DNA of 64,000 nucleotides from Agrobacterium tumefaciens str. B6 (GTDB taxonomy: Bacteria > Pseudomonadota > Alphaproteobacteria > Rhizobiales > Rhizobiaceae): positions 124,001-188,000 of the forward strand of contig NZ_LMVK01000051.1 of assembly GCF_001541315.1 (NCBI RefSeq), written 5' to 3'. The position numbers were made by a program, and so were the translations under genes. Of the stretch, positions 7,521 through 42,840 are shown piece by piece. Position 1 is the stretch's first letter, and the number at the start of each line of letters is the position of its first letter. Below the pieces are notes generated by a model. It did no database searches, was not told the origin of the DNA, and saw only the letters and a list, made by a program, of their open reading frames with translations.

Positions 7521-8741
7521 ATGGAAGAGTTTCATAAGGTCCGGCGTCTGCCGCAATACGTCTTCGAACAGGTCAACCGTTTGAAAGCGAGCGCGCGAGC
7601 GGCCGGGGCCGATATCATCGATCTCGGCATGGGCAATCCCGACCTTCCGACCCCCAAGGCGATCGTCGACAAGCTTTGCGAGGTCGTTCAGGATCCGCGT
7701 ACCCATCGTTATTCCTCCTCCAAGGGCATTCCAGGCCTTCGCCGCGCGCAGGCCGGTTATTATGCCCGCCGTTTCGGCGTGAAGCTGAACCCCGATACGC
7801 AGGTCGTCGCGACCCTCGGCTCCAAGGAAGGCTTCGCCAATATGGCGCAGGCCATCACCGCGCCGGGCGACGTCATCCTGTGTCCGAACCCGACCTATCC
7901 GATCCATGCCTTCGGTTTCCTGATGGCGGGCGGTGTTATCCGTTCGATGAATGTCGAGCCTGATGACAGTTTCTTTGGCCCGCTGGAGCGCGCCGTGCGC
8001 CACTCCATCCCGAAGCCGCTGGCGCTGATCGTCAACTACCCGTCGAACCCGACGGCGCATGTCGCCTCGCTTGATTTCTACAAGGACGTGATCGCCTTTG
8101 CGAAGAAGCACGAGATCATTGTGTTGTCCGACCTTGCCTATTCGGAGATCTATTTCGACGACAACAATCCGCCGCCTTCGGTTCTGGAAGTTCCCGGTGC
8201 AATCGACGTTGCGGTGGAATTCACCTCCATGTCGAAGACCTTCTCCATGCCAGGCTGGCGTATGGGCTTTGCCGTCGGCAACGAGCGGCTGATCGCGGCG
8301 CTGACGCGTGTGAAGTCCTATCTCGACTACGGCGCCTTCACGCCGATCCAGGTTGCGGCAACGCATGCGCTGAACGGTGACGGCTCTGACATTGCCGAAG
8401 TGCGCAATGTCTATCGCCGCCGTCGCGATGTCATGGTCGACACGTTCGGCAAGGCCGGCTTCGAGGTTCCGCCGCCGGCGGCGACCATGTTCGCCTGGGC
8501 GAAAATCCCGGAAAAGTTCCGCCATCTCGGCAGCCTGGAATTCTCCAAGCTTCTGGTCGAGAAGGCCGATATTGCCGTTGCTCCCGGCATCGGCTTTGGC
8601 GAGATGGGCGATGATTACGTCCGTCTCGCGCTCGTGGAAAACGAGCACCGAATTCGTCAGGCAGCGCGCAATCTGAAGCGTTTCCTGTCGAGCGCAGACG
8701 AAACGATGCACAACGTCGTTTCGCTTAACGCCCACAGATAA
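7521..8741 (+). CDS. Class I/II pyridoxal-phosphate aminotransferase (AlaC-like)
   Basis: Fold-type I aminotransferase of 406 residues. The PLP lysine is Lys239 in SMSKTFSMPGWRMGF, preceded by NYPSNPTAHV (substrate and PLP phosphate loop) and LSDLAYSEIYFD. The opening MGNPDLPTPKAIVDKL is typical of AlaC/LL-diaminopimelate aminotransferase-like enzymes. I chose ATG 7521 because AGGAAAGAG sits just upstream; longer versions start at 7509, 7482 or 7443. It is followed after 61 bases by homoserine dehydrogenase, so a role in amino-acid synthesis (alanine or the aspartate family) is likely. The exact amino donor is not certain. Confidence 0.87.
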   Translation: MEEFHKVRRLPQYVFEQVNRLKASARAAGADIIDLGMGNPDLPTPKAIVDKLCEVVQDPRTHRYSSSKGIPGLRRAQAGYYARRFGVKLNPDTQVVATLGSKEGFANMAQAITAPGDVILCPNPTYPIHAFGFLMAGGVIRSMNVEPDDSFFGPLERAVRHSIPKPLALIVNYPSNPTAHVASLDFYKDVIAFAKKHEIIVLSDLAYSEIYFDDNNPPPSVLEVPGAIDVAVEFTSMSKTFSMPGWRMGFAVGNERLIAALTRVKSYLDYGAFTPIQVAATHALNGDGSDIAEVRNVYRRRRDVMVDTFGKAGFEVPPPAATMFAWAKIPEKFRHLGSLEFSKLLVEKADIAVAPGIGFGEMGDDYVRLALVENEHRIRQAARNLKRFLSSADETMHNVVSLNAHR

Positions 8742-8802
8742 GGGCAACCGAAGGCGGCCGGGCCTCGGCCGCCACCATCACCAGCAAATCAGGAACATAC
8801 CC

Positions 8803-10113
8803 ATGGCAGATTCATTGAGAATCGGCATAGCGGGGCTCGGCACTGTCGGCGCTTCGCTCGTGCGCATCCTCCAGCAGAGAAGCAACGAACTTGCGATTAC
8901 CTGCGGACGCGCGATTGAGATTATTGCGGTGAGCGCGCGCGACCGTTCGCGCGACCGCGGCATCGATCTCAAGGGTATTACCTGGTTCGACACGCCCGAG
9001 CAGATGGCAAGCGAAGCCGATATCGACGTCTTCGTCGAACTGGTCGGCGGCGCTTCCGGTCAGGCGGAAAATGCGGTGCGCGCGGCACTCGCCCGTGGTC
9101 TCCATGTGGTGACAGCCAACAAGGCGCTGCTGGCCAAGCATGGCGTCGAACTGGCGACGATTGCCGAAGACAAGGGCGCGCTTCTCAATTTCGAAGCGGC
9201 GGTGGCCGGCGGTATCCCCGTCATCAAGGCGCTGCGCGAATCCCTGACCGGCAACCATGTGTCGCGCATCTACGGCATCATGAACGGCACCTGCAATTAC
9301 ATCCTGACCAAGATGGAGAAGGAAGGGCTGTCCTTCGAGGCCTGTCTGAAGGAAGCGCAGCGGCTGGGTTATGCCGAAGCCGATCCGGCCTTCGATATCG
9401 AGGGCAACGACACCGCTCACAAGCTCGCCATTTTGACCACGCTTGCCTTCGGCAACAAGATTTCGGCTGATGACATCTATCTGGAAGGCATCACCAATAT
9501 CTCCAGCGAGGACATTCAGGCGGCCGCCGAACTCGGTTACCGCATCAAGCTTCTCGGCGTGGCGCAGGTGACCGAATCCGGCATCGAGCAGCGCGTGCAT
9601 CCGACCATGGTGCCGCTCGATTCCGTCATTGCCCAGGTTGACGGCGTGACCAATGCGGTGGCGATCGAATCCGACATTCTCGGCGAGTTGCTGATGGTCG
9701 GCCCGGGTGCCGGCGGCAACGCCACGGCTTCCGCCGTGCTCGGCGACATCGCCGATATCGCCAAGAGCCGTCCGGGCGCCCAGCAGGTGCCTGTCCTCGG
9801 CCGTCCGGCGAAATCCCTGTCGGAGTATCGCCGCGCCAAGATGAAGAGCCATGAGGGCGGTTATTTCATCCGCCTGACGGTGAAGGACCAGGCGGGCGTC
9901 TTCGCCTCCATCGCCACCCGCATGGCTGACAATAACATTTCGCTGGAATCCATCGTGCAGCGCCAGCGCGTGCATGTGGAAGGCGCGCCGCAGACCATCA
10001 TCCTCGTCACCCATGCGACGATGGAAGATGCGATCCGCAAGGCCGTGAAGGCCATCAAGAACGAGAAATATCTCGTCAGCGAGCCGCAGGTCATCCGCAT
10101 CGAGCGGACCTGA
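8803..10113 (+). CDS. hom: Homoserine dehydrogenase with ACT domain
   Basis: Reduces aspartate semialdehyde to homoserine with NAD(P)H, the branch point to threonine and methionine. The protein has 436 residues. GLAGTVG-type nucleotide loop: GIAGLGTVGASLVRIL at residues 6-21. The catalytic region includes EAAVAGGIPVIKALRESL and GNDTAHKLAIL. A C-terminal ACT domain (about 350-425, YFIRLTVKDQAGVFASIATR) indicates feedback control by an amino acid, usually threonine. It lies 61 bases after the aminotransferase gene and is probably cotranscribed. A strong hairpin follows at 10144. Confidence 0.95.
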   Translation: MADSLRIGIAGLGTVGASLVRILQQRSNELAITCGRAIEIIAVSARDRSRDRGIDLKGITWFDTPEQMASEADIDVFVELVGGASGQAENAVRAALARGLHVVTANKALLAKHGVELATIAEDKGALLNFEAAVAGGIPVIKALRESLTGNHVSRIYGIMNGTCNYILTKMEKEGLSFEACLKEAQRLGYAEADPAFDIEGNDTAHKLAILTTLAFGNKISADDIYLEGITNISSEDIQAAAELGYRIKLLGVAQVTESGIEQRVHPTMVPLDSVIAQVDGVTNAVAIESDILGELLMVGPGAGGNATASAVLGDIADIAKSRPGAQQVPVLGRPAKSLSEYRRAKMKSHEGGYFIRLTVKDQAGVFASIATRMADNNISLESIVQRQRVHVEGAPQTIILVTHATMEDAIRKAVKAIKNEKYLVSEPQVIRIERT

Positions 10114-37365: not shown

Positions 37366-37475
37366 ATGTCCCAGCTCCCTTTTTAATCAATATTCGACGG
37401 TCGTTCACCGTTGCGTGAGTAAAAGCGCGAGGCTAATTTTGGTTCCATCGGTGAAATCGCGGCGTGAGGTCGGGT

Positions 37476-37901
37476 GTGAATCAGTTCAGGGTTAAAAAGC
37501 GGCCGACAGGGGCTGTCGTTACACTTGGCCGCCTTGGGCATCCCGACGTCGTCACGGCCACCGGAGGCGCCCTGACGGTGGTGACGGGGGCCTCAGAGCC
37601 GGGTTTCAATCCGCTCGATCTTCTTTATTCTTCGCTGGCGGCCTGCCTGGCGCTTAGCGCCCGGATTGCGGCGAGCCGCATGGCTGTGCTCGACCGGTTC
37701 GAAAAGGTCACGGTGCATGTGTCGGGCGAAAAGGCCGATGAGGAGCCATCGTGGATCGTGCGTTTCGATGTCCGGATCGAGATAAAGGGGGATTTCGATG
37801 AGGCCACCCGCAGCGGCATCGCCCATATGGCCGAGGATATCTGTACCGTCAGCAACACGCTGAAGGGCGATGCGGAATTTGTGCTGTCGGTTACCGGCTG
37901 A
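37476..37901 (+). CDS. OsmC family protein
   Basis: A 141-residue protein of the OsmC/Ohr fold, a group of thiol-dependent peroxidases. The first redox cysteine would be in SSLAACLALSARIA (about residue 58), the second in AEDICTVSNTL (about 123). GAGG precedes GTG 37476, preferred over GTG 37464. It would protect against organic hydroperoxides if the cysteines are reactive. It is convergent with the ydeP operon. Confidence 0.85.
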   Translation: MNQFRVKKRPTGAVVTLGRLGHPDVVTATGGALTVVTGASEPGFNPLDLLYSSLAACLALSARIAASRMAVLDRFEKVTVHVSGEKADEEPSWIVRFDVRIEIKGDFDEATRSGIAHMAEDICTVSNTLKGDAEFVLSVTG

Positions 37902-37904
37902 CCA

Positions 37905-38399
37905 TCAAGTTTTTCGGGATTTTTCCCATTTTTTTACCAGCCGGTCGCGCTTGAGTTTCGAGAGGCGCTTCAGCCAGAAAATACCGTCCAGCTGGTCGAT
38001 CTCGTGCTGGATGCAGATGGCGTGAAATCCTTGGGCGGTCTGCCGGTGTTCTGCCCCGGATATGTCCTGAAACCTCACCTCGATTTCCGAGGGCCGTTCC
38101 ACCTCGTCGGTAAAGCCCGGCATGGAGACGCTGCCCTCCACATGGCGCATTGTCTGCGACGACTGGCTGACGATTTCAGGGTTGACGTAAGTCAGGACAG
38201 TTCCCGGTGTCAGCTCCAGCACGAAAACTCGCTGTTTTACGCCGATATGGGCGGCGGTGATGCCCACGCCCGGCGCGGCGCGCATCGTGTCGGTCAGATC
38301 GGTGAGCAGATCGTGCAGTTGCTCGCCGAAAACGGTGACCGGCGCGCAGATCTCGGACAGACCGGAATGGGGATAGGGCAGGATCGGCCTGATTGCCAA
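37905..38399 (-). CDS. Peptide-deformylase-like protein lacking metal ligands
   Basis: A 164-residue protein with the peptide deformylase fold but altered active-site motifs. Motif 1 is GVGITAAH (44-51), where deformylases have GxGLAAxQ, so the Gln is His. Motif 2 is EGSVS (88-92), where EGCLS is expected, so the metal-binding Cys is Ser90. Motif 3 is HEIDQ (132-136), where HExDH is expected, so one metal-binding His is Gln136. Two of the three metal ligands are lost. The start is TTG 38399 with CGGAG upstream. It is the last gene of a three-gene operon with the YdeP-type oxidoreductase. Normal deformylation is unlikely. Confidence 0.82.
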   Translation of the reverse strand: MAIRPILPYPHSGLSEICAPVTVFGEQLHDLLTDLTDTMRAAPGVGITAAHIGVKQRVFVLELTPGTVLTYVNPEIVSQSSQTMRHVEGSVSMPGFTDEVERPSEIEVRFQDISGAEHRQTAQGFHAICIQHEIDQLDGIFWLKRLSKLKRDRLVKKWEKSRKT

Positions 38400-38416
38400 A
38401 GAATGCTCCGTTCTTT

Positions 38417-38719
38417 TTAAATTCGGGAGGAAGAGGCGGCGAGCGCCTGTCCTTCCTCCGTTGCCTCCAGAAAGCTGCGCTGGGTGCGGGCATCGCGTTT
38501 TGTGACCCGCACGAAACGCGGCGACAGCAGAGTGATTTCGCGCAGAATGAGGGCGTGTGCAAGCCCAAGCCGGTTGGCGATGCTGCGGCTGTCGGCGGCA
38601 ATGTTCAGATAAACCGCCAGAAGGATCGCCGCGCCCGTGGCCGTCAGCACCTGTGAGGAGCTTTCCTGAACCCGCTCCACCGCCGCCATGAACGCAGCGG
38701 CGGATTGCTCCTCTTCCAT
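38417..38719 (-). CDS. Hypothetical protein of the ydeP operon
   Basis: A 100-residue protein of unknown function. It is rich in Ala, with a hydrophobic helix (about 27-45, LTATGAAILLAVYLNIAAD) followed by NRLGLAHALILREITLLSPRF and a polar end. The start ATG shares one base with the ydeP stop, and the deformylase-like gene starts 17 bases later, so it is the middle gene of a tight operon. Confidence 0.65.
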   Translation of the reverse strand: MEEEQSAAAFMAAVERVQESSSQVLTATGAAILLAVYLNIAADSRSIANRLGLAHALILREITLLSPRFVRVTKRDARTQRSFLEATEEGQALAASSSRI

Positions 38720-41019
38720 CAGGAGGCGTCCGGGCGCAGGCGAACGGAGACGAGCACCGATTTCGATGTCGGCGTGAAGCTGCCTTCGCCATAGCTCGAC
38801 AGCGGCACCAGCACGTTCAGTTCCGGGTAATAACCGCCGACGCTGCCGCGCGGGATATTATAGGGCACCAGTCGGAAATCTTCCGCGATACGCTCCATGC
38901 CATCGCCATATTCGCCGATGACATCGACGCGCTGGCGGGAATGGGCGCCGAGCGCTTCCATATCTCCAGGGTTCATGAATATGACGTGGCGTTCGCCATA
39001 GACGCCGCGATAGCGGTCATCCATGCCGTAGATCGTGGTGTTGTATTGATCGTGGCTGCGGAATGTCTGCAGTACGAAGAGGTTATCACGCATCAGCGCC
39101 TGCTGGTGTTCGGTCTGTTCCGGCAAGGGGCCGCTATAGAAGGTGGCCTTTTTTGCCGGCGTGTTCCATTCCCGTTCGGCCGCCGCATTGCGCAGATGAA
39201 AACCGCGCGGCACACGGACGCGTTCGTTGAAATTGTCGAAACCGGGAATGACCCGCTCGATCATGTCGCGGATGAGATCGTAATCATCGGCAAGCGCCTT
39301 CCAGTCGAGATGCGCATTGCCAAGCGTTGCTTCGGCGATGCCGGCAACGATGGCGACTTCCGAACGCAGCTCCTCCGAGGCCGGCGGATTGATGCCGCCG
39401 GAACCGTGCACCATGCTCATGGAATCTTCCACCGTAACGATCTGCGAGCGGCCGGCCGAATTGCGGTCGATTTCCGTTCGGCCGAGGCAGGGCAATACGA
39501 AGGAGGTTTCGCCCGGCACCAGATGCGAATGGTTGAGCTTGGTGGCGATGTTGACGGTCAGCTTCTGCTTTTCGAAAGCCTTGACGATCAGCGGGCTGTC
39601 GGGTGTCGCGCGCATGAAATTGCCGCCGAGGGCGATGAAGGTCTGAGCCTTGCCCTCCAGCATCGCGGCGACGGCTTCCACGGTATTGTGGCCGGGTCTG
39701 CGCGGCATAGGCACACCAAGTTCCTTCTCCAGCGCGTCGAGAAGCGCCGGCGGTGCTTTTTCGTCGATGCCGACGGTGCGGTCACCCTGCACGTTGGAAT
39801 GGCCGCGCACCGGGCAAAGGCCGGCGCCCGGACGGCCGACATTGCCGCGCAGCAGCATGAAATTGGTGATTTCACGAACGATGATGACGGAGTGACGGTG
39901 CTGGGTGACGCCCATGGCCCAGGTGGCGATGACGGACCCGGCATTCATGTAGATACGGGCGGCTTCCTCGATCTCCGCGCGGGTGAGGCCGGACTGGTCG
40001 AGGATGCTTTCCCAGCTCGTCGCTTCGACGGCGGCGCGATAGGCCTCGAACTCCGCCGCATGTTCGGCGATGAAGTCATAATCGATAATGGTAGGCTCGC
40101 CGGCCGCCCTTGCGGCCTCGTCGGCGGCGAAGACCGCCTTGCTCATGCCGCGCACCGCCGCCATGTCTCCGCCCTGCCGGGGCTGGTAATAATTGGTGGC
40201 GATGCGGGTGCTGCCACCGGTAATCATCTCCACCTTGTCCTGCGGGTCTGCAAAGCGCTCCAGACCCTTTTCGCGGATGGGATTGAAGACGGCGATCCGG
40301 GCGCCGCGAAGGGCGGCACGGCGCAGGTCGCCCAGCATGCGGGGATGGTTGGTGCCGGGATTTTGCCCGATGACGAAAATGGCGTCGGTCTGCTCGAAAT
40401 CCTCAAGCAGCACGGTGCCCTTGCCGACGCCGATCGATTCCTTCAGGCCGACGCCGCTCGCTTCGTGGCACATGTTGGAGCAGTCGGGGAAATTATTGGT
40501 GCCGTAGAGCCGGACCATCAACTGATAGAGGAAGGCGGCCTCGTTGGAGGCGCGGCCGGAGGTATAGAACTCCGCCCGGTCCGGGCTGTCGAGACTGTTG
40601 AGGATGTCACCGATTTCGGCGAAGGCATCGTCCCAGGAAACGGGCAGATATCTGTCGCTTGCCCGGTCATAACGCATGGGATGGGTTAGGCGGCCCTGTT
40701 TTTCCAGATCGTAGTCAGACCAGCTGCGCAGTTCGGAGACGGTGCGGCTGGCGAAGAAATCCGGTGGTACGCGCGCCTCCGTCGCTTCCCATGACACTGC
40801 CTTGACGCCGTTTTCGCAGAATTCGAAAGAGGAGCCGTGTTCTGGGTCACCCCAGGCGCAGCCCGGGCAGTCGAAACCATCCGGCTGGTTGGTCTTCAAA
40901 AGTGTGCGGGCGCCGGAAATCGGTGCGCCGGATTCCAGAAGGCGTTTGCCGACGCTTTTGAGTGCGCCCCAGCCACCTGCGGCGGAGGATGCCTTGCCTA
41001 TGAAATCCGTCTTGCTCAT
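38719..41019 (-). CDS. ydeP: Molybdopterin oxidoreductase, YdeP/FdhF-like
   Basis: A 766-residue alpha subunit-like protein of the formate dehydrogenase/DMSO reductase superfamily. The N-terminal CPGCAWGDPEHGSSFEFC gives a Cys set different from the usual CxxCxxxC iron-sulfur site. The middle carries GRASNEAAFLYQ, IGQNPGTNHPRML and MGVTQHRHS. The C-terminal half has the molybdopterin-binding fold, ending PRGSVGGYYPELNVL. In E. coli, YdeP is linked to acid resistance, but its reaction is not known. The start ATG 41019 leaves a normal N-terminus; the upstream frame lacks support. Confidence 0.87.
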   Translation of the reverse strand: MSKTDFIGKASSAAGGWGALKSVGKRLLESGAPISGARTLLKTNQPDGFDCPGCAWGDPEHGSSFEFCENGVKAVSWEATEARVPPDFFASRTVSELRSWSDYDLEKQGRLTHPMRYDRASDRYLPVSWDDAFAEIGDILNSLDSPDRAEFYTSGRASNEAAFLYQLMVRLYGTNNFPDCSNMCHEASGVGLKESIGVGKGTVLLEDFEQTDAIFVIGQNPGTNHPRMLGDLRRAALRGARIAVFNPIREKGLERFADPQDKVEMITGGSTRIATNYYQPRQGGDMAAVRGMSKAVFAADEAARAAGEPTIIDYDFIAEHAAEFEAYRAAVEATSWESILDQSGLTRAEIEEAARIYMNAGSVIATWAMGVTQHRHSVIIVREITNFMLLRGNVGRPGAGLCPVRGHSNVQGDRTVGIDEKAPPALLDALEKELGVPMPRRPGHNTVEAVAAMLEGKAQTFIALGGNFMRATPDSPLIVKAFEKQKLTVNIATKLNHSHLVPGETSFVLPCLGRTEIDRNSAGRSQIVTVEDSMSMVHGSGGINPPASEELRSEVAIVAGIAEATLGNAHLDWKALADDYDLIRDMIERVIPGFDNFNERVRVPRGFHLRNAAAEREWNTPAKKATFYSGPLPEQTEHQQALMRDNLFVLQTFRSHDQYNTTIYGMDDRYRGVYGERHVIFMNPGDMEALGAHSRQRVDVIGEYGDGMERIAEDFRLVPYNIPRGSVGGYYPELNVLVPLSSYGEGSFTPTSKSVLVSVRLRPDAS

Positions 41020-41412
41020 GGTTGTGATTCCCGGGATATGTCTTCTCGCGCCCGCCTGCCGGCGCTTGCCGTTTGTCAAAAGCAACTTCAAAAGCGCTGA
41101 TCCACACCGCCTGTCAATGTCTTAATTGTGCATTGCGGTGAAACCCTTATTTGCCCGTTCGACATTTGAAATGGGAACGGCGTAAAGGGGGTGGACGTTG
41201 TCGCAAAGCAAGCTGCAAAGATTGGCTAAACATGCTTGTGGCCGCTGGCTGAGACCCTGCCGGCCAATAGGAAGTGGAATGTTGAATGGATTTTGCGCCG
41301 CAGTCGGAAAGCTTGTTCATTTGCCGCTATCCGGTTGTTGACAATATACCTTTTAACGCCATTCTGCCTGCGCATCCGTGCACTGCGGCATTTGAATACG
41401 AGGGGACGCCAG
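41020..41412. promoter_or_regulatory. Divergent promoter region between ydeP and mgtE
   Basis: A 393-base non-coding region. TTGACA at 41338-41343 is a good -35 candidate for mgtE, but I cannot fix a matching -10. I looked for an M-box or other Mg2+-sensing leader before mgtE and recognised none. Confidence 0.35.
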
Positions 41413-42840
41413 ATGACAGACCGTGACGACGATCCTGTCGCGCCCGAGGACGTGAAGCCGACAGAAGCGCCCTCCGATATTTACGCCGAAGATGGGTCTG
41501 TGCGCTCCGACTTTCTGACGATGGTGGGTGCGGCGATCGCTGACCGCGATCTGCTTTTCCTGCGCAAGAATGTGGCGCGGCTGCACGAATCGGAACTCGG
41601 CGACCTCCTGGAATCCATCCTGCCTGAACAGCGCCATGCGCTGGTGCGGCTTCTTGGTTCCGATTTCGACATGACGGCGCTGACCGAGGTGGATGAGGGC
41701 ATCCGTCTCGATATCGTCGACCAGATGTCGAACGAGCAGATCGCCGCCGGTATCGGCGAGCTGGATTCGGACGACGCCGGCTATATTCTCGAGGACCTCG
41801 ACGACGAAGACCGCGAGGATATTCTCTCGCAACTGCCGTTCACCGAACGCGTGCGGCTGATGAGGGCGCTGGATTATCCGGAAAGTTCGGCCGGCCGCCG
41901 CATGCAGACGGAATTCGTGGCCGTGCCGCCGTTCTGGACCGTGGGGCAGACCATCGATTATCTGCGCGAAGAAGAAGAACTGCCGGAATCGTTTTCGCAA
42001 ATTTTCGTTATCGATCCCACGTTCAAGCTGGTCGGTGCGCTTGATCTCGATCGCGTGCTGCGCGCTAAGCGTCAGGTGAAGATCGAAACGATCATGCACG
42101 AGACCAACCACTCCATTCCGGCCGAGATGGACCAGGAAGAGGCCGCGCAGCTTTTCGAGCAATACGACCTTCTCTCCGCAGCCGTAGTCGATGACAACGG
42201 CCGGCTGGTGGGCGTGCTGACCATCGATGACGTGGTGGACGTCATTCAGGAAGAGGCCGAAGAGGATCTGCTGCGCCTTGGCGGTGTCGGTGACGAAGAG
42301 CTGTCTGATAGCATTGTCAGCACCTCGCGCTCGCGTGTGCCCTGGCTTGCCGTCAATCTCCTTACCGCCTTTCTGTCCGCCTCGGTCATCAGCCTGTTCG
42401 ATGCGACGATCCAGCAGATTATCGCTCTGGCGATCCTGATGCCGGCGGTGGCCGGCATGGGCGGCAATGCCGGATCGCAGACCATGACGGTGTCGGTGCG
42501 GGCGCTCGCCACCAAAAGCCTCGATATTCACAACGCCGCCCGCATCATCAGGCGCGAGGCGGGTGTGGGTATCCTGAACGGCATGCTGTTCGGTTGCGCC
42601 ATCGGCATTGTCGCCGGTGTCTGGTTTCAGGATATCCATATCGGTGGCATCATCGCCACGGCCATGTGTCTCAACATGCTGGCGGCGGCGCTGGCGGGCA
42701 TTCTCATTCCGCTGGTGCTCGACAAGTTCGGAGCGGATCCGGCCGTTTCTTCGGCAGTCTTCGTCACGGCGGTCACCGATATTGTCGGCTTTTTCGCCTT
42801 TCTGGGGATCGCGACCTGGTGGTACGGTATTTCCGGATAG
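41413..42840 (+). CDS. mgtE: Magnesium transporter MgtE
   Basis: A 475-residue Mg2+ channel of the inner membrane. The acidic N-terminal domain (about 30-150) has repeats such as DSDDAGYILEDLDDEDREDIL. Two CBS domains (about 160-280, with YDLLSAAVVDDNGRLVGVLT) sense cytoplasmic Mg2+. Five membrane helices form the pore in the C-terminal 180 residues, with MPAVAGMGGNAGSQTM as the family signature. GAGGGG precedes ATG 41413. A GC-rich frame further upstream is not supported. Confidence 0.94.
   Translation: MTDRDDDPVAPEDVKPTEAPSDIYAEDGSVRSDFLTMVGAAIADRDLLFLRKNVARLHESELGDLLESILPEQRHALVRLLGSDFDMTALTEVDEGIRLDIVDQMSNEQIAAGIGELDSDDAGYILEDLDDEDREDILSQLPFTERVRLMRALDYPESSAGRRMQTEFVAVPPFWTVGQTIDYLREEEELPESFSQIFVIDPTFKLVGALDLDRVLRAKRQVKIETIMHETNHSIPAEMDQEEAAQLFEQYDLLSAAVVDDNGRLVGVLTIDDVVDVIQEEAEEDLLRLGGVGDEELSDSIVSTSRSRVPWLAVNLLTAFLSASVISLFDATIQQIIALAILMPAVAGMGGNAGSQTMTVSVRALATKSLDIHNAARIIRREAGVGILNGMLFGCAIGIVAGVWFQDIHIGGIIATAMCLNMLAAALAGILIPLVLDKFGADPAVSSAVFVTAVTDIVGFFAFLGIATWWYGISG

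Follow-up and report, generated by a model that had tools for sequence, protein, structure and literature searches.

The window, that is, the whole stretch of DNA analysed (64,000 nucleotides), contained a gene for a peptide deformylase (PDF)-like protein on the minus strand. The features of this gene and its neighbours were as follows.

37905..38399, minus strand: PDF-like gene, 164 amino acids, TTG start (translation; PF01327 and NF009484 matches).
37911..37958, minus strand: C-terminal helix, residues 148-163, with Leu149, Lys150, Arg153 and Lys157 (model, conservation and the contacts given in PMC12690207).
37992..38006, minus strand: motif 3, HEIDQ; His132 and Glu133 are kept and Gln136 (37992-37994) replaces the second His ligand (translation and alignment).
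38124..38138, minus strand: motif 2, EGSVS (residues 88-92); Ser90 (38130-38132) replaces the Cys ligand (translation and alignment).
38247..38270, minus strand: motif 1, GVGITAAH; His51 (38247-38249) replaces Gln (translation and alignment).
38406..38411, minus strand: Shine-Dalgarno-like ACGGAG, read 5' of the TTG of the PDF-like gene and ending 6 bases before it.
38417..38719, minus strand: 100-aa ORF, a lineage-specific neighbour and companion of many close ydeP homologues (locus comparison).
38719..41016 (query range; open frame from 41091), minus strand: FdhF/YdeP-type oxidoreductase, a lineage-specific neighbour (TIGR01701, 945 bits).
41236..42840, plus strand: mgtE magnesium transporter, a neighbour across Rhizobiaceae loci (family match; the real start may lie inside).

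Start codons were compared in 18 sister loci. The TTG start position was common to eight near relatives (L033-L039 and L087), and the other ten loci had ATG or GTG. GGAG was found at the equivalent place 5' of the gene in the same eight relatives. The TTG start is credible because TTG lies at the same place in these eight and ATG or GTG is used in the other ten.

PDF, a textbook metalloenzyme by which newly made proteins are trimmed, is a target of antibiotics. To our knowledge, its ligand set is considered fixed. The protein encoded at 37905..38399 matched PF01327 over residues 3-151 (8.6e-43, 146 bits; cut-off 22.8). It also scored 254 bits with the NCBIfam model NF009484 (PRK12846.1-5; cut-off 190), which is named peptide deformylase, though the ligands implied by that name were absent. 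GVGITAAHIG occupied residues 44-53 and QHEIDQ residues 131-136. Motif I of catalytic PDFs ends in Gln (GxGxAAxQ), where the window protein has His51. Motif II holds the Cys ligand (EGCxS), where it has Ser90. Motif III holds two His ligands (HExxH), where it reads HEIDQ, with the first His and the Glu present. In alignment with the Pseudomonas aeruginosa PDF, the best solved PDF, His51, Ser90 and Gln136 were paired with Gln, Cys and His, respectively. The first-pass annotation had reported EGSVS and HEIDQ, a His in place of the motif 1 Gln, and the loss of two metal ligands; translation and alignment confirmed these points, the lost ligands being the Cys and the second His of the metal site. 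It had also allowed for a different alignment that would restore the ligands. None was obtained with the P. aeruginosa PDF; the sole gap, two residues long, came directly after query residue 66, well away from the motifs, and this alignment consequently offers no way to restore the ligands.

An AlphaFold model of the protein, made with an alignment of 59 variants as input, had a pLDDT of 96.2 and a pTM of 0.91. The solved structures listed as closest to the model (Foldseek among the methods) were PDFs, including 1n5n (Z 27.2) and the E. coli Fe-PDF 1xen (Z 26.8, rmsd 1.2 Å over 162 aligned residues). The earlier view that the PDF fold is kept was borne out by the model, and with the curated cut-off of PF01327 also passed, the protein belongs to the peptide deformylase fold family.

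A total of 190 distinct PDF sequences was compared. The residues H51-S90-H132-E133-Q136 were present in 134/134 distinct variants (window included). The remaining 56 PDFs had Q-C-H-E-H (54 sequences), Q-S-H-Q-H (one) or M-S-H-E-Y (one). The variant pattern is a reciprocal Gln/His exchange between motifs 1 and 3 plus a Cys-to-Ser change, fixed across the clade; the first-pass annotation had not recognised the exchange as reciprocal and clade-wide. Chance or sequencing error is an unlikely source of this pattern, because the five active-site residues were identical in every distinct variant. Eighty loci (L033-L112) were taken from a scan for EGSVSMPG or QHEIDQL[DN], and invariance among those is partly built in; the scan gave 577 confirmed stretches out of 596, of which 80 loci are named here. 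All 56 variants found without the motif scan (window included; 46 through the whole-protein search and ten through the variant profile or NF009484) also carried H51-S90-H132-E133-Q136. Two sequences (L196 and L199) scored nearer to the window protein than to the canonical query, yet were canonical and were counted with the other PDFs.

Variant-grade matches were present in 52 of 297 genomes of the order, 46 confirmed by sequence and six on score alone. At least one further PDF match (E 1e-20) was found in each of these 52 genomes, and deformylation is therefore probably covered in them. The second PDF was canonical in all seven genomes read besides that of the window (G159, G064, G117, G045, G143, G035 and G188), and the window's own genome has a canonical PDF elsewhere (G000:C1, EGCLS, HEIDH). 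Across 398 genomes of the phylum, at least 24 scored 213 bits or more with the variant profile and all of them belonged to the window's order. No variant was found outside Alphaproteobacteria at 213 bits or more in these 398 genomes with this profile, which was built from the order and may be escaped by distant forms. Among 289 genomes of the class, at least ten reached 213 bits, eight of them outside the window's order. The NF009484 cut-off was passed in 4 of 115 class genomes (G000, the window's; G689; G683; G741), each time by a variant. The nearest named relatives of the window locus, among the scan matches listed, were Agrobacterium and Rhizobium records. Sixteen plasmid records matched; the seven places read comprised five variants and two canonical-type PDFs, and variant genes lay on plasmid records of, for example, Aminobacter and Mesorhizobium. 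Phage records gave 95 matches, all below 60% identity.

A tree was built from an alignment stripped of columns 51, 90 and 136. In this quick search, which left 41 of 85 inner branches open, a single branch (SH-aLRT 96) set the 42 variant rows apart from the others. The quick tree indicates a single origin of the variant clade.

Pairwise dN/dS of the window gene against 12 near orthologues was 0.08-0.19, with five pairs near saturation (dS >1). No internal stop was present in any listed match of the whole-protein search. As judged from these sequences, the variant gene is under purifying selection. Sites conserved in both families with different residues were taken as those with at least 85% identity of residue in 69 variants and at least 70% in 32 canonical PDFs, each set thinned at 80% identity. 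This gave seven sites (35, 51, 90, 91, 136, 141 and 142); all but one lay within one of the three motifs or no more than 6 residues beyond motif 3. Change was therefore focused on the active site and was fixed thereafter. Glu133, His132 and Arg102 were invariant among variants, and when the 164 columns were ordered by conservation, those of the active site took ranks 2 to 12.

According to PMC12690207, Leu149, Lys150, Arg153 and Lys157 are the residues by which E. coli PDF is docked on ribosomal protein uL22. The C-terminal helix with L149, K150, R153 and K157 that defines type 1B PDFs was present in the window protein. With Lys/Arg exchange allowed and a gap counted as not kept, all four contact positions were retained in 131/134 variants, 29/42 canonical PDFs and 0/14 other accessory PDFs; the last group was set apart by hand and its divergent C-termini were aligned less surely. 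On this retention the variant seems at least as docking-constrained as canonical PDFs, unlike the other accessory PDFs. The variant protein would still dock at the ribosome. The docking positions may be inherited type 1B features, because most canonical PDFs keep them.

Gene neighbourhoods were compared over the 80 named loci of the 577 scan matches. mgtE lay in the flank of 78 of the 80 loci. Of the 62 loci that lack ydeP, 60 had mgtE as the immediate upstream, divergent neighbour of the variant gene, and a Sinorhizobium meliloti record had the same mgtE arrangement. In the other 18 loci, which were the best-scoring of the scan, mgtE lay on the far side of ydeP; these 18 alone had ydeP and the 100-aa ORF in the interval from mgtE to the PDF-like gene. 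A further 50 far loci (46 variant and four canonical; flanks of about 4 kb at most, less where a contig ended) gave no tblastn match at 1e-5 to ydeP, the 100-aa ORF, osmC, lipB, mgtE or the PAS ORF. The first-pass annotation had linked the role of the protein to an operon with ydeP and had suggested a survey beside ydeP. The operon was rejected as a guide to function, since ydeP was adjacent in 18/80 named loci and 0/46 distant variant loci and a PDF lay within 1.5 kb at 0/29 other ydeP loci; these 29 and the window's own make up 30 of 49 places listed. No recurrent partner of the variant stood out in 45 far loci. An ABC-transporter ATPase family, named by eye, occurred in 10 of the 45, at varying places and strands, and the genes adjoining far variants (20 inspected) were by eye mutually unrelated. 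The variant PDF gene behaves as a stand-alone gene. Context gives no substrate, because no neighbour common to the distant relatives was found.

Several smaller observations were made on the neighbouring genes. Divergence of the variant PDF gene and mgtE (L050-L112 except L087, about 8100-10000) suggests a shared promoter region. An OsmC-type gene (37464-37901, plus strand) is convergent with the PDF-like gene; 28 of the 80 named loci (of 577) had a homologue in the flank. The 100-aa ORF starts at the end of ydeP and had no Pfam or NCBIfam match at 0.001; at 11 of the 29 other loci it was found (1e-4) no more than 1.5 kb from the ydeP relative. It looks like a conserved small partner of ydeP, perhaps a regulator. 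The window's genome has a second YdeP-type oxidoreductase (G000:C11:9960-12212), 56% identical to the one adjacent to the gene.

The Salmonella PDF depends on Cys90 for its activity, and this Cys is the residue S-nitrosylated by nitric oxide, as described in PMC7683392. The same source describes overexpressed C90S as giving no relief of the zinc inhibition of a zinc-exporter mutant, unlike the wild type. Because the Salmonella enzyme needs Cys90 (PMC7683392), the classical reaction is unlikely in the variant; by this analogy, the loss of classical deformylation proposed in the first-pass annotation is likely.

Our leading reading, held tentatively, is that the protein is a ribosome-docking PDF paralogue in which the Cys-His-His site has been dismantled and replaced by a fixed set of His51, Ser90, His132, Glu133 and Gln136, and which would hydrolyse N-formyl-type N-termini. 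The protein would dock at the tunnel exit and there encounter formylated nascent N-termini. His51 and His132 would form a new centre, in which Glu133 would assist, either as a ligand or as the general base, together with Gln136 or Ser90. A metal might be bound in a 2-His-1-carboxylate-like arrangement; alternatively, His51, His132, Glu133, Gln136 and Ser90 might act without metal. The substrate would most simply be a formylated or otherwise blocked N-terminus at the ribosome exit. Hydrolysis of this or a similar N-terminal substrate could proceed in conditions that disable the Fe/Cys enzyme, such as nitric oxide or peroxide stress. Work under such stress is proposed because the Cys that becomes nitrosylated is absent, and a role as stress back-up of the iron enzyme is a guess.

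A bolder form of this proposal is doubtful. It holds that the protein is a second ribosome-docked alphaproteobacterial protein in which the His ligand has moved from motif 3 to motif 1 and the Cys has been dropped. The metal centre would be of a kind undescribed for deformylases. The protein would work on or read formylated nascent N-termini, in N-terminal processing or surveillance at times when nitric oxide or peroxide has poisoned the iron enzyme.

It is possible that the protein is instead a non-catalytic reader, which would bind nascent chains in its pocket by their formyl-Met, or by an N-terminus blocked in another way, and not cleave them. It might compete with or regulate the canonical PDF at uL22, or mark proteins that escaped deformylation. 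Such a role is consistent with the loss of two of the three metal ligands, the requirement for Cys90 in the canonical enzyme (PMC7683392), the retained fold and ribosome-contact residues, and the further PDF match in each of the 52 variant-bearing genomes. Invariance of the active-site residues would equally be expected of a binding protein. However, the invariance of Glu133 and His132 in all variants goes beyond the needs of pure binding, and the Gln/His exchange resembles rebuilding rather than loss. Glu133 is presumably the catalytic acid/base. A rebuilt site around H51, H132 and E133, with a catalytic role, is favoured over a binder of formylated N-termini, because Glu133 was never lost, though a binder would be free to lose it, and because the Gln/His exchange is reciprocal.

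A working deformylase, in which Gln136, Ser90 or water completes a weak metal site and the formyl group is removed from Met in the canonical way, is unlikely. According to PMC12690207, a PDF that matches the updated motifs exactly is missing from 7.1% of reference genomes, and the type 3 PDFs of Trypanosoma brucei, whose motifs are altered, are reported to be active. The changes in the variant, however, hit the ligands themselves rather than flanking residues, Cys90 is required in the canonical enzyme (PMC7683392), and another PDF match is present in each of the 52 variant-bearing genomes. Still less probable is a metal-independent hydrolase with Ser90 as nucleophile, activated by His132 or His51. 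Ser stands at the centre of the site in place of Cys, invariant beside an invariant His and Glu, but it may be just an inert substitute for Cys. A degenerate pseudogene product on its way out, as lost ligands and GTG or TTG starts in 10 of the 18 loci inspected might suggest, is scarcely credible against listed matches free of internal stops, a dN/dS of 0.08-0.19 and active-site columns ranking 2 to 12 of 164. The variant gene is a conserved paralogue and not a decayed copy.

The protein resembles type 1B PDFs (E. coli Def, P. aeruginosa Def) in its fold, uL22-contact C-terminal helix, Glu133, Arg102 and motif backbones. It differs from them in Ser for Cys90, Gln for His136 and His for the motif 1 Gln, and also in Val for Leu91 and in FW for LF after motif 3. 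Published accounts portray type 3 PDFs as heterogeneous, with changes in motifs I and II, C-termini whose length is not conserved, and activity that is weak or absent (PMC12690207, PMC5591237). The substitutions in motifs I and II that define this type were found in the window protein (His51 and Ser90), and motif III was changed too. The variant is accessory and has motif substitutions like the type 3 PDFs of archaea and trypanosomatids and the inactive second PDFs of S. aureus and S. pneumoniae (PMC12690207, PMC5591237). Unlike type 3 PDFs as described in these sources, it has three exact changes that are fixed, one of them in motif III, and keeps the ribosome helix. In 5,042 reference genomes, exact agreement with the classical motifs is reported for 61.9% of PDFs and with the revised ones for 80% (PMC12690207). 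The main text of PMC12690207 contains no word beginning Rhizobi or Agrobacterium. No treatment of the clade with His51, Ser90 and Gln136 was recognised among the titles and abstract starts of the open-access papers listed.

In the variant clade, three of five central residues were swapped and then frozen, with the ribosome-docking residues kept. The clade would be either an example from nature of a metal site that has moved or a reader specialised on N-formyl ends; each would be a novelty for the earliest phase of a protein's life. On sequence evidence, the variant probably has another function, or one that is powered in another way, and may exert it at the ribosome. Peptide deformylase is the name given by the NCBI model and by 7 of the 16 matching plasmid records. 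The sequence gives no support to the deformylase activity that these annotations imply, and many genomes carry an annotated peptide deformylase that probably does not act as one.

Two other altered alphaproteobacterial PDFs were seen, which were the sole partial changes among the 190 PDFs and lay outside the variant clade. One (L193 457-; Q-S-H-Q-H) lies in a cluster of three PDF genes; the other (L195 469+; M-S-H-E-Y) has a long tree branch. Both are like the variant in being accessory PDFs that have lost the Cys. Unlike the variant clade, they have other substitution patterns and branch next to the canonical PDF of the L193 genome.
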